Shown here: positions 9,386 to 12,684 of the stretch, piece by piece | Layout: the number at the start of each line of letters is the position of its first letter | Numbering within the stretch: position 1 is the first letter of the stretch | From: Alphaproteobacteria bacterium | GTDB lineage: Bacteria; Pseudomonadota; Alphaproteobacteria; UBA9219 | NCBI GenBank assembly: GCA_026225415.1 | Contig: JAMFSS010000011.1 | Coordinates: forward strand, 62,001 to 126,000 | Length of the DNA stretch: 64,000 nt | Direction: 5' to 3' | The notes under the pieces: generated by a model | The model's database searches: none | Told to the model about the DNA's origin: nothing | The model's input: only the letters and a program-made list of their open reading frames with translations | Program-made: the position numbers and the translations under genes

Positions 9386-10356
9386 AACGCGGCACGGATA
9401 TCGCTCATCGCCGTGATGAAGGCCAATTTTTTGTCCAAATTGCCATGTTCCGCGCTCTCCAATGTCGCCCGCGTTTTGTCCCATAATTGCAGGGCCAATG
9501 GCGCGTGGCCTTCCGCCTGTACCGCTTCCTTATGCACCGTCAAACGCAACCGTTCGACCAGCAAGGCTGTCAGCACTTCAAAGCTTTCGGCATCGGCTTT
9601 GCGCGCAATCTGGTCGGCCAGTTTATGCACACGCGCAACATCCATCACCGGCATCGCATCCAGTATCGCCAGCATTTCGCGGTAGAGCGGCAAAACTTCG
9701 CTTTGGAGAATTTTCAACGCGAACCCAATACTCCCGCCCGATAAATCAATCAACGCGTTAATATCTTCCGGCGGCAAAGTTGGCGCGGCGCGGTGCAAGG
9801 TTGTACGCATGTGGGGTGTGTCGAGCGGCAACAAATCCAATGTGCGCGTGCGCGACCGGATGGTAGGCAATAATGCACCCGGCGTCGTGACGGTCAGCAA
9901 AATCAAAACCTGCGGCGGCGGTTCTTCGACAATTTTCAAAATCGCGTTCTGGCCGTGGCGGTTCAACCGATGCGCTTCGTCTATCAACACCACGCGCCAC
10001 CCGCCATGGGTCGCGGTTTTGCGCAAGAAAGCCGCAACCTTCAACGCCTGCTCAACCGGGATAATGTTTTTCTGCTCTCCGGTTTTTTCATCCAATGGGC
10101 GGCGAATGATCAGCAAATCGGGATGGGTTTCGGCTTCGACAAGTTTGTAAACCTGTTGTGTCGGATCGGCCTTGCCAATTTTGCCCTGCCCCTTGGCCAG
10201 CACGAATTGCGCGATATGTTTGGCCAAAGTCGCTTTGCCAATCCCTTCGATACCTGTAACTAACCACGCATGATGCATGCGGCCAGAGGCGAACGCCGCT
10301 TCGACCTCCGCCATAGCCGCGTCATGCCCGACCAGATGATGCGTATGTTCGCTCAT
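9382..10356 (-). CDS. holB: DNA polymerase III delta' subunit HolB
   Basis: 324-residue clamp-loader subunit. It has the AAA+ start L-V-G-H-D-A-A followed by W-L-V-T-G-I-E-G-I-G-K-A-T-L-A (P-loop), the D-E-A-H-R-L-N Walker B region and the sensor segment T-I-R-S-R. Compared with delta' of E. coli, the degenerate ATPase looks fairly intact. The ATG at 10356 overlaps the tmk stop as ATGA, so tmk and holB are translationally coupled, the usual arrangement. An upstream start at 10374 would lie inside tmk. Confidence 0.93.
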   Translation of the reverse strand: MSEHTHHLVGHDAAMAEVEAAFASGRMHHAWLVTGIEGIGKATLAKHIAQFVLAKGQGKIGKADPTQQVYKLVEAETHPDLLIIRRPLDEKTGEQKNIIPVEQALKVAAFLRKTATHGGWRVVLIDEAHRLNRHGQNAILKIVEEPPPQVLILLTVTTPGALLPTIRSRTRTLDLLPLDTPHMRTTLHRAAPTLPPEDINALIDLSGGSIGFALKILQSEVLPLYREMLAILDAMPVMDVARVHKLADQIARKADAESFEVLTALLVERLRLTVHKEAVQAEGHAPLALQLWDKTRATLESAEHGNLDKKLAFITAMSDIRAAF

Positions 10357-10985
10357 AAGCCGAAGCTCTTGCACATAATGTCTTCAATAACAGTCGAAAC
10401 CGTCGCCGCATCACCCGACGCATCGACAATGCGGAAACGGTGCGCATCCTGCCCCGCCAAAGCCAGATAGGCTTCGCGTAGTTTTTGATGAAACGCGATG
10501 TCGCGTTGTTGATACCGGTCATCCTGCCCGCCGCGCGATGTCATACGCGCCAATCCGGCTTCGACCGGCAAATCCAGCAACAAAGTCAAATCCGGTTCAA
10601 AATCATCGGCGATGAGGGAATAAACATGTTCGACAAAATCCAATCCCAATCCCAAACCAATCCCTTGATAGGCGCGGGTAGAATCCACAAACCTGTCCGA
10701 CACAACCCATGCGCCGCGTTCGAGCGCAGGCCAGATTGTCTTGATCAAATGTTCGCGTCTGGCGGCCATAATCAACAATAACTCGCTATGCGCGTCCCAA
10801 TAGCCTTCGCCCTTGGTCAACCACAACTCGCGAATGGCTTCGGCGGAAGGGGCGCCGCCCACTTCGCGGGTTTGCACCACTTCGATATTTTTACCGCGCA
10901 AAAACGCGCACAAAGCTTTGATCTGGGTCGATTTCCCCGCCCCTTCGCCGCCTTCAAGCGTTATGAATTTGCCACTCATGCTCAT
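10353..10985 (-). CDS. tmk: thymidylate kinase
   Basis: 210 residues (208 if the second Met at 10979 is used). Phosphorylates dTMP to dTDP. P-loop G-G-E-G-A-G-K-S-T at residues 12-20, then the V-V-S-D-R-F-V-D-S-T-R-A-Y-Q-G signature with the D-R-(Y/F) motif of the family. The start codon ATGA overlaps the stop of the DUF559 gene, while the stop overlaps the holB start. In related alphaproteobacteria the gene upstream is normally the D-Ala-D-Ala carboxypeptidase; here the DUF559 element lies between. Confidence 0.95.
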   Translation of the reverse strand: MSMSGKFITLEGGEGAGKSTQIKALCAFLRGKNIEVVQTREVGGAPSAEAIRELWLTKGEGYWDAHSELLLIMAARREHLIKTIWPALERGAWVVSDRFVDSTRAYQGIGLGLGLDFVEHVYSLIADDFEPDLTLLLDLPVEAGLARMTSRGGQDDRYQQRDIAFHQKLREAYLALAGQDAHRFRIVDASGDAATVSTVIEDIMCKSFGL

Positions 10986-11401
10986 TGAGCTTCCCTATCC
11001 GCCACAAGAGGTAGCCCTCCCCCTTTATGGGGGAGGGTTGGGTGGGGGTGATGCCGCAGTAACCCGCTACTTATCACTTCACAAACCCCATCAATATTTT
11101 CCAATACTTCATGATTCCAGAAACGCAAAATCTGATAGCCCTGCTTCTCTATAAACTCACTTCTGTTTTGTTCGCATTCCGACTCCAAATCATGTTGCCC
11201 GCCGTCAATTTCAATCGCAAGCTTTTGCTCATGACAAACAAAATCAACAATAAATCTTCCAATCGGAACCTGTCGGCGAAATTTATATCCATGCATCTGA
11301 CAAGAACGTAATTGTTGCCAAATCGCAGACTCGGCATCGGTCATATTTTTTCTTAATGCCCGTGACAATATTTTACTAGCTGATGGTGGATATTTCTTCA
11401 T
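10982..11401 (-). CDS. DUF559 (Vsr-like) endonuclease-fold protein
   Basis: 139 residues. N-terminal helices (S-R-A-L-R-K-N-M-T-D-A-E-S-A-I-W-Q-Q-L-R) precede the nuclease core: K-F-R-R-Q-V-P-I-G-R-F-I-V-D-F-V-C, then K-L-A-I-E-I-D-G-G-Q-H with the putative catalytic acids, then Q-G-Y-Q-I-L-R-F-W-N. This is the DUF559 family, related in fold to the Vsr mismatch endonuclease. The last 20 or so residues (H-H-P-H-P-T-L-P-H-K-G-G-G) are not nuclease sequence but a translation of the flanking G/C-run repeat. The frame then runs on until its stop overlaps the tmk ATG, so it has been spliced into the dac-tmk operon with coupling kept. Role unknown. Confidence 0.85.
   Translation of the reverse strand: MKKYPPSASKILSRALRKNMTDAESAIWQQLRSCQMHGYKFRRQVPIGRFIVDFVCHEQKLAIEIDGGQHDLESECEQNRSEFIEKQGYQILRFWNHEVLENIDGVCEVISSGLLRHHPHPTLPHKGGGLPLVADREAQ
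11015..11037. repeat. hairpin repeat, left end of DUF559 element
   Basis: CCCTCCCCC-TTTAT-GGGGGAGGG, a perfect 9-bp stem with a 5-base loop, followed inward by GGGTGGGGGTG (11040-11050). The same two modules recur in mirror order on the other side of the DUF559 gene, so these look like ends of one element. The stem lies inside the 3' coding part of the DUF559 gene. Confidence 0.8.
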
Positions 11402-11429
11402 CTTACACTATCATCTCCTATGCAGAAGT

Positions 11430-11511
11430 CACCCCCACCTGCAAAAACTAAGACTTACGACCAAGAGCGTAAGCCTAAGTTTTTGCTTCCTCCCCCATCA
11501 AGGGGGAGGAA
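11430..11511. repeat. compound hairpin repeat, right end of DUF559 element
   Basis: Three modules in order: CACCCCCACCT (11430-11440, mirror of the left-end G run); a 19-nt inverted repeat at 11441-11459 and 11468-11486 (17 of 19 pairing, 8-base loop); then TTCCTCCCCC-ATCAA-GGGGGAGGAA at 11487-11511, a 10-bp stem. The outer hairpins at both ends share the CCTCCCCC/GGGGGAGG stem. On the minus strand these lie between dac and the DUF559 start, where they could also reduce read-through into tmk. Confidence 0.8.
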
Positions 11512-11517
11512 AATTGA

Positions 11518-12684
11518 TCAAGCCTTCTTGCCGCCGAAAACAACGCCCAACTTGGTGAAAAAGCGCGAGAAGAAACCAACTCGCGGCACATCGACCGAGG
11601 CCACCAACGGCACAATTTTCGTTTCCATGCCGGGTGCCGTTACGGTCAACACGCCGATTTGTTGTCCCTTGGCAATGGGTGCTGCAATCGGTTGATCAAA
11701 AGACGCGACCGCCTTTAATCCTGCGCGCGCGCTGCGCGGCAACGTGAACATGGCATTATCCGCCGCGACCATTGGCACATTTTTCGCGGTACCCAGCCAC
11801 ACAGTCGGGCTGGCCACAATATCGCCCGCCTTGGCAACAGGGTACAAACCATATTCACGATACCCGTAGTCCAACACTTTGGCGGACTCGTCAGCACGTG
11901 CCTGCATATCCTGCATGCCGTTCAAAACAAAAAACACGCGGCGCCCATCGCGCACGGCGGAGCCGGTCAGGCCATAGCCGCCGATATCCGTGTGACCCGT
12001 CTTTAGGCCATCAACATTCATATTCCGGTAAAGCAGCGGATTGCGGTTGCCCTGCGAAATACCATTATAGGTAAAATTCAATTCCGAAAAGAAATGATAA
12101 TGTTCCGGAAAATCGCGTTGCAACGCCATCGCCAAAATCGCCAGATCATGCGCGGTGGAATAATGTTGCGGATCGGGCAAGCCGGTCGCATTCATAAAAT
12201 GGCTGTTATTCATGCCCAGCGCTTTGGCTTGGGTATTCATCACATCGGCGAATGCGGATTCCGACCCCGACCCCAAACCTTCGGCCAATGTCACCGCCGC
12301 ATCATTGCCCGATTGTATGATCACACCGCGGATCAAATCTTCGACCTTGGCTTGTTCGCCCACGTTCAAAAACATGCGCGACCCTTCTTGTTTCCACGCG
12401 TGTTCGCTAACCGGCAGTTTGTCTTCCATGTGCAGCTTGCCGTCTTTCAACGCCTGAAACACCACATACATCGTCATCATCTTGCTCATCGACGATGTCG
12501 GCATTTGCGTGTCGGCATCCTTGGCGAACATCGGCGTGCCGGTTGCGGCATCGATCAGATAAACCTGACGCGCGGCGACATCCAATGGCGCAGTGGCAGC
12601 AGGAGCAGCAACCGGCGCGGCCTCCTGCGCTTGCGCAGCCGCAAAAAACATCAAAGAAAAAACAACGGCGAGCTTGGTTTTCAT
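11518..12684 (-). CDS. D-alanyl-D-alanine carboxypeptidase (PBP5/DacA-DacC family)
   Basis: 388 residues with a cleavable signal peptide (M-K-T-K-L-A-V-V-F ... A-Q-A-Q). All three serine-peptidase motifs are present: S-M-S-K (nucleophile Ser65, Lys68), S-G-N at 125-127 and K-T-G at 228-230. A C-terminal beta domain (about 290-380) ends with an amphipathic helix that could hold the enzyme on the membrane. It removes the terminal D-Ala from peptidoglycan stem peptides in the periplasm. It follows rlpA after 12 bases in the minus-strand envelope operon. Confidence 0.92.
   Translation of the reverse strand: MKTKLAVVFSLMFFAAAQAQEAAPVAAPAATAPLDVAARQVYLIDAATGTPMFAKDADTQMPTSSMSKMMTMYVVFQALKDGKLHMEDKLPVSEHAWKQEGSRMFLNVGEQAKVEDLIRGVIIQSGNDAAVTLAEGLGSGSESAFADVMNTQAKALGMNNSHFMNATGLPDPQHYSTAHDLAILAMALQRDFPEHYHFFSELNFTYNGISQGNRNPLLYRNMNVDGLKTGHTDIGGYGLTGSAVRDGRRVFFVLNGMQDMQARADESAKVLDYGYREYGLYPVAKAGDIVASPTVWLGTAKNVPMVAADNAMFTLPRSARAGLKAVASFDQPIAAPIAKGQQIGVLTVTAPGMETKIVPLVASVDVPRVGFFSRFFTKLGVVFGGKKA

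Follow-up and report, generated by a model that had tools for sequence, protein, structure and literature searches.

The question raised by this locus is why a small nuclease gene, packed between mirrored hairpin repeats, should lie between dac and tmk, and whether gene and repeats together form a mobile unit. The locus is from an Alphaproteobacteria bacterium (UBA9219), assembly GCA_026225415.1, and all coordinates are those of the window, by which we mean the whole 64-kb stretch analysed (JAMFSS010000011.1, positions 62,001-126,000, forward strand). On direct reading the block at 11015-11511 sits between dac and tmk and holds a DUF559 gene with two inverted arms, laid out as follows.

10353..10985, minus strand: tmk, thymidylate kinase, downstream of the unit (PF02223, E=2.9e-41; open reading frames)
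10982..11401, minus strand: DUF559 nuclease gene, 139 codons, with its C-terminal tail from the 3' arm (PF04480, E=5.7e-39)
11015..11037, plus strand: hairpin of the 3' arm, CCCTCCCCC (11015-11023)-TTTAT-GGGGGAGGG (11029-11037) (sequence; arm detector)
11040..11048, plus strand: third strand of the 3' arm, GGGTGGGGG, which mirrors the purine strand, with the linker TT at 11038-11039 (sequence; arm detector)
11432..11439, minus strand: third strand of the 5' arm, GGTGGGGG (sequence; arm detector)
11441..11486, minus strand: stem-loop of the 5' arm, GCAAAAACTTAGGCTTACG..., at the linker position (sequence; layout repeated in L011 and L020)
11487..11511, minus strand: hairpin of the 5' arm, TTCCTCCCCC-TTGAT-GGGGGAGGAA (sequence; arm detector)
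11518..12684, minus strand: dac, D-alanyl-D-alanine carboxypeptidase, upstream of the unit (PF00768, E=1.5e-70)

Both arms have their parts in the same order, pyrimidine strand, loop, purine strand, linker and G-rich third strand, and the third strands of both point towards the DUF559 gene. The mirror pairs are GGGGGAGGG with GGGTGGGGG and GGGGGAGG with GGTGGGGG. The linkers differ, being TT in the 3' arm and a stem-loop in the 5' arm, and this stem-loop (11486-11441), at the position taken in the other arm by TT alone, is the extra 19-nt stem that a first-pass annotation had noted on the 5' side. The mirrored hairpins outside and C5/G5 runs inside described in that annotation are all present at this place around the gene, the innermost runs being the final element of each arm. 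It had also described the tail of the nuclease as the repeat itself, and indeed about the last 23 codons (HHPHPTLPHKGGGL...) are the translated 3' arm, with the TGA of the DUF559 gene overlapping the ATG of tmk as ATGA, again as described. The inverted-repeat score across the gene is 18.5. Reading into the arm is found elsewhere too, the frame entering the right-hand arm in 32 of the 51 DUF559 genes that have one. At another place in the same genome (L005, G000:C5:97266-97577) there is a DUF559 open frame of 581 aa which by eye appears to cross the right arm and enter the beginning of a gene resembling folC, a possible natural fusion.

BoxC/TM repeats were first described in the 1990s, and as read from their sequence the window arms share the anatomy of this repeat, known as BoxC, PIT or the intrastrand triplex motif (TM): our arm detector finds in both a hairpin followed by a mirrored third strand (L006). 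The hairpin family proposed in the first-pass annotation is real and is mirrored around the gene, but it is the known BoxC/triplex motif and not a new one. In the parts of Holder et al. (2015, PMC4666352) used here the TM is reported from more than 260 genomes, with 23 occurrences in E. coli MG1655 and inverted pairs in five cases; the E. coli linker is TTA or CCG, and the E. coli motif forms a triplex as a single strand in vitro. The same parts state that transposase or integrase remnants were never found around the TM, and no word of the main text starts with ycjD, DUF or endonuclease. By eye there is a BoxC/TM-type motif downstream of the E. coli DUF559 gene ycjD.

The purine strand and the third strand mirror each other with a score of 0.842 in 34 distinct arms, as against 0.758 when shuffled, and only 1 of 2000 shuffles was as high. 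This mirror rule favours, on sequence grounds, a triplex over a plain G-quadruplex, the formation of either being unproven by the rule. The arms do fit the G-quadruplex pattern, but a triplex would suit them better because the interruptions in the last G-run mirror those of the hairpin and because the linker may be a stem-loop. An RNA family for the arms was also considered and rejected, as the two matches were both far under the gathering scores.

With regard to the nuclease, the window protein passes the PF04480 cut-off (132.8 bits against 20.6). Its structure model, built from 50 aligned sequences, has a pLDDT of 87.3, and structural neighbours were also searched with Foldseek. The best structural match is 3hrl, another DUF559 protein (Z 17.0; sequence-profile E value 7.7e-36), with the catalytic domain of the homing endonuclease I-Bth0305I (3r3p) at Z 13.4 (5e-5) and the mismatch nickase Vsr (1cw0) at Z 10.8 (0.12). 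The fold is Vsr-like, in agreement with the first-pass annotation, and a known homing nuclease is a relative of the window protein by both profile and fold. In the parts of the source used here, the DUF559 protein VsrA of Caulobacter, a proposed mismatch-repair enzyme, is required for the DNA-damage response in cells that lack a cytosine methylase (PMC12907096); since VsrA is needed in that response, a DUF559 member appears to act on DNA in vivo. A role of the window protein as a defence gene was rejected, PADLOC giving no match for it.

The distribution of the family is patchy: 29 of 59 relatives have it, as do 108 of the 299 genomes sampled from the window's phylum, and PF04480 matches number up to 10 per genome (G044). 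Phyla are intermingled in the DUF559 tree, though two odd placements (L034 and L046) are metagenome bins, and the search of phage records gave 2 matches. Among 14 control genomes, one of them an E. coli, only Caulobacter and Corynebacterium gave PF04480 matches; E. coli K-12 carries ycjD, yet this search gave no E. coli match.

The arrangement in the window is one case of a general pattern. When DUF559 genes were compared with control positions inside the same loci, an arm was found within 300 bp of 82 of 96 genes and of 37 of 1316 control positions, and arms on both sides of 40 of the 96 genes and of none of the 1316 positions, which bears out the enrichment of DUF559 genes beside such hairpins that the first-pass annotation had proposed as a check. 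The 96 genes, all found by profile or protein search, are in three sets (58 + 29 + 9), and the association extends across phyla. For the first set, counted without loci found by peptide patterns, an arm is present on either side of 47 of 58 genes and on both sides of 25. For the phylum-wide set, comprising the 29 best-scoring loci, chosen by score instead of by random draw, the figures are 28 of 29 (controls 21/290) and 12 of 29 (controls 0/290), and for the cyanobacteria, Deinococcus and Neisseria set 7 of 9 (controls 3/90) and 3 of 9 (controls 0/90). Of the places in relatives (73 listed), 53 have E<1e-20 and 51 of these were used; the plasmids contributed 18 of 43 records, which were chosen by organism with the flanks still unseen. 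The plasmid query included the arm-encoded tail, and one match (L244) extended over that tail.

Other measures of the association include a further 40 DUF559 loci from a scan with six peptide patterns, which may be biased towards arms because one pattern (HHPHPTLP) is encoded by the arm itself. These loci count in the 93-locus arm test, the inverted-repeat, G-run and Mantel tests and the mirror rule, and are absent from the 82 of 96 and 40 of 96 given above. The 93-locus test is of full arm anatomy, and the 58 genes given above are those of its loci that did not come from the peptide scan; with controls drawn from all its loci it gave an arm on either side in 76 of 93 loci (13/936 controls) and on both sides in 38 (0/936). 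A gapped inverted repeat with a score of at least 18 spans the gene in 60 of 83 DUF559 loci and in none of 1360 controls, being missing at the other 23 loci, and an ungapped one with a score of 16 does so in 37 of 63 loci (4/995 controls); G-run arms face the gene from both sides in 13 of 63 (0/3164 controls). In the phylum-wide set a plain inverted-repeat score of 18 is reached at 13 of 29 genes, but also at 7 of 290 controls. Loci with short flanks were dropped (8 of 91 in the gapped inverted-repeat test and 8 of 101 in the arm-detector test), and the strict arm detector misses short all-G arms in L307 and L311 as well as E. coli ycjD, where the stem contains one mismatch.

Coevolution of arm and protein was rejected, as the global Mantel test of arm type against protein, which left out the 34 of 100 loci without a clear inverted repeat, gave no support (rho 0.03, a value reached in 270 of 1000 permutations). 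In only 9 of 30 loci does the arm resemble that of the nearest foreign homologue more than the mean of its own genome, and in G014, G015 and G019 two DUF559 genes that are 52-57% identical share arm types within each genome.

At the level of whole genomes, five or more arms are present in 48 of the 80 phylum genomes with a strong DUF559 match (E<1e-12) and in 16 of the 219 others, which have none or a weak one (299 genomes in all); these counts are raw, with ancestry, base composition and genome quality left uncorrected. There are ten or more arms but no strong DUF559 match in nine genomes. In the 59 relatives the numbers of DUF559 genes and arms are correlated (Spearman 0.38, p 0.003, uncorrected for ancestry or composition), in contrast to those of RAYT genes and arms (Spearman 0.08, p 0.56). 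The counts behind the correlations, the arm neighbours and the co-occurrence were copied by hand from search listings, and those from the G006 listings are "at least" figures. A profile search for the Y1 transposase (PF01797) gave none in the window genome (G000), G006, G036, G042 or G046, and RAYT was rejected as the driver of the arms, the numbers being uncorrelated and several arm-rich genomes lacking RAYT.

The distribution of the arms themselves is informative. The first-pass annotation had named hairpins equally common away from DUF559 genes as the observation that would count against it. Of the five copies of GAGGGGTTAGGGGCGGGG in the window genome, four form the facing arms of two other DUF559 genes, but of 14 hairpins of the form CCTCCCCC(3-8)GGGGGAGG 12 are away from any DUF559 gene. 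G006, which is in the same genus, has 170 arms with the tail pattern and 1 for the reversed control, and its four DUF559 genes are each next to a different arm family. The hairpin pairs without DUF559 that were to be sought exist, as gene-less inverted arm pairs are amplified in G006 and are also present in other genomes. Among the arms listed (at least 209, from six genomes, with single-arm contigs left out) neighbours no more than 250 bp apart are 48 times +/-, 9 times -/+, twice -/- and never +/+, and in G006 the short pairs are mostly tails-inward. In G295 there are 25 arms all on one strand, with an array-like appearance.

Opposed arms 250-900 bp apart, among the arms listed in six genomes, enclose DUF559 at all 5 loci. 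By eye there are five further opposed pairs among the arms listed, and 4 of the 5 hold DUF559 (in G198, G249, G275 and one in G126), the place in G275 having been found from its arms and being absent from the listed profile matches. One opposed pair at gene distance in G126 is a repeat cluster enclosing no gene. The ten opposed-arm loci at gene distance are thus nine with DUF559 and one geneless, none having another gene. At L316 (G126:C1:2657700-2658950) there is a cluster of several TM-like repeats without a DUF559 match.

The first-pass annotation described the block as interrupting the dac-tmk junction and proposed a search for empty sites, and in 20 of the 25 relatives that have tmk (28 searched) dac and tmk are directly adjacent, the junction being uninterrupted. 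Of the other five G006 has DUF559, one has another gene and three have no dac beside tmk. In G007 (L108) a different gene, class IV aminotransferase-like by eye, lies between dac and tmk. At dac-tmk, the DUF559 copy of the window genome is sister to that of G006 (97/85), so that it is probably an old insertion that has been inherited. The same annotation had proposed that a target duplication be looked for, and none was seen by eye in the aligned ends of the G006 copies, where exact ends are not set.

Movement looks clearer in Deinococcus plasmids than at dac-tmk. In D. proteolyticus DUF559 separates hpaB from an oxidoreductase gene that itself forms a closed junction with hpaE, and in Deinococcus NW-56 it lies between an equally annotated oxidoreductase gene and hpaE; the two DUF559 proteins are 87% identical and are at different junctions of the hpa operon. 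In D. aetherius DUF559 follows a VOC gene and in D. psychrotolerans it is between paaD and paaZ. No clean empty site was found in the Sinorhizobium and Azospirillum plasmids. In E. coli 3333 of 5426 genomes contain at least 80% of the fabI-ycjD-sapF block, and ycjD was rejected as a clean empty site, there being an efflux operon beside sapF in O157:H7 Z1813 and S88.

Some other placements were seen in passing. Three cyanobacterial plasmid loci (L306, L309 and L313) have DUF559 beside or inside DUF1156 or PglX-type methylase and BREX genes, in L313 as a stretch that has an arm on either side and falls within a single long annotated ORF, and these DUF559 genes may be insertions into defence genes. 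In six relatives (L019, L021, L023, L025, L026 and L186) an arm-bearing DUF559 gene precedes what is by sequence a sufC-like gene.

Among known systems, the unit shares with BoxC/PIT/TM the hairpin with a mirrored G-rich third strand and the occurrence in inverted pairs. In the parts of the published account used here (PMC4666352) BoxC/TM has no linked gene or mobility function, whereas our arms enclose the gene of a nuclease and may have a stem-loop as linker. With the REPtron (RAYT/TnpAREP and its REPs, as described in the parts of PMC6006769 used) it has in common inverted hairpin repeats around a small nuclease gene, the presence of these repeats in many gene-less copies as well, and a patchy distribution. 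It differs in having a Vsr/homing fold in place of an HUH Y1 transposase, the window protein not being PF01797, and in the third strand after the hairpin; nor is the GTAG/GTGG foot general, as GTAG precedes one window arm (11011-11014) and other arms read ATT, TT, AAG or ACT. Because enzyme and repeat foot differ, the unit is not a member of RAYT/REP. The analogy with RAYT/REP drawn in the first-pass annotation holds for the anatomy, no Y1 transposase being needed in several arm-rich genomes, but that DUF559 moves or cuts arms we can only infer. I-Bth0305I and Vsr resemble the window protein in profile and fold (3r3p, 1cw0) but the DUF559 gene is outside an intron and has repeat arms. MITEs are alike in having many short gene-less inverted-pair copies (in G006 and others); no DDE transposase is implied here, and by eye no target duplication was seen in the provisional ends of the aligned G006 copies. 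Among titles and abstract openings in PubMed Central, outside which most subscription papers lie, we found no link of DUF559 to these repeats.

Our preferred explanation is that the block is a REPtron-like unit, in which one Vsr/homing-fold nuclease gene is carried between or next to inverted BoxC/TM arms and moves them, and we regard this as somewhat better than an even chance. As the gene is usually beside or between mirrored arms, the nuclease is a candidate agent for the spread of BoxC/TM repeats. DUF559 would recognise an arm extruded as a single strand, as a hairpin with the third strand possibly folded back, and would then nick or cut at or near the arm, after which arm pairs could be copied elsewhere by repair or strand transfer, in company with the gene, as in the window, or without it, giving the short gene-less pairs. 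We infer that DUF559 binds and cuts arms and thereby moves them, and that the triplex is recognised over the hairpin alone. The minimal nuclease-plus-hairpin element suggested in the first-pass annotation gains from the enrichment, the empty sites and the gene-less pairs, but has against it the arms in genomes without a strong DUF559 match.

Those same genomes fit a different reading, for which the Mantel test leaves room, since arm type does not follow the protein overall and is often common to different DUF559 genes of a genome, the result least in line with a nuclease that owns its arms: that DUF559 is a free-standing homing-type endonuclease colonising resident TM pairs, with the arms being host repeats that are its landing or target site. 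Arms that track the host genome more than the protein, as in G014, G015 and G019, agree with it, as does the finding that the closest solved relative outside DUF559 is a homing endonuclease. However, arms and DUF559 co-occur strongly, as would be expected if the former depended on the latter, and with 4 of 5 copies at DUF559 genes the GAGGGGTTAGGGGCGGGG arms of the window genome are hardly a resident family, so that we think this reading rather unlikely. It and our preferred explanation would share a core, that DUF559 acts on the arms.

Two further readings were weighed. TM arms may be unstable, recombination-prone spots with DUF559 as passive cargo or a late arrival, and in its favour TM loci are reported to be rearranged more between strains of E. 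coli, in the parts of PMC4666352 used, and an efflux operon takes the ycjD place in two E. coli strains; but passive capture does not predict arms mirrored around the gene, and with DUF559 in 9 of 10 opposed-arm loci, no gene in one and no other gene in any, it is improbable. It is still harder to credit that DUF559 is a Vsr-like nuclease with which the host repairs or maintains its DNA by acting on TM structures or mismatches, and whose gene stays near its substrate: the fold match to Vsr (Z 10.8) and the place of Caulobacter VsrA in the DNA-damage response (PMC12907096, in the parts used) are in its favour, but what is typical of a housekeeping gene is not seen in the patchy presence, the up to 10 matches per genome, the placement in operons and the mixing of phyla in the tree, and we give it very little weight.

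Returning to the REPtron-like unit, a wider form of this explanation is that DUF559 nucleases are a pan-bacterial class of minimal mobile elements of about 0.5 kb, with intrastrand-triplex motifs as ends and a Vsr/homing-fold nuclease as sole gene, and that the BoxC/TM repeats in E. coli, cyanobacteria and many others derive from them; we put this forward tentatively, as a little short of an even chance. The presence of DUF559 genes beside BoxC/TM repeats opens the spread of these repeats to direct test, and in E. coli K-12 too, with ycjD as the candidate there. If the explanation is true, it would give a role to the uncharacterised DUF559 family, present in 108 of the 299 sampled phylum genomes, and would add a second, unrelated enzyme to those in a REPtron-like arrangement.
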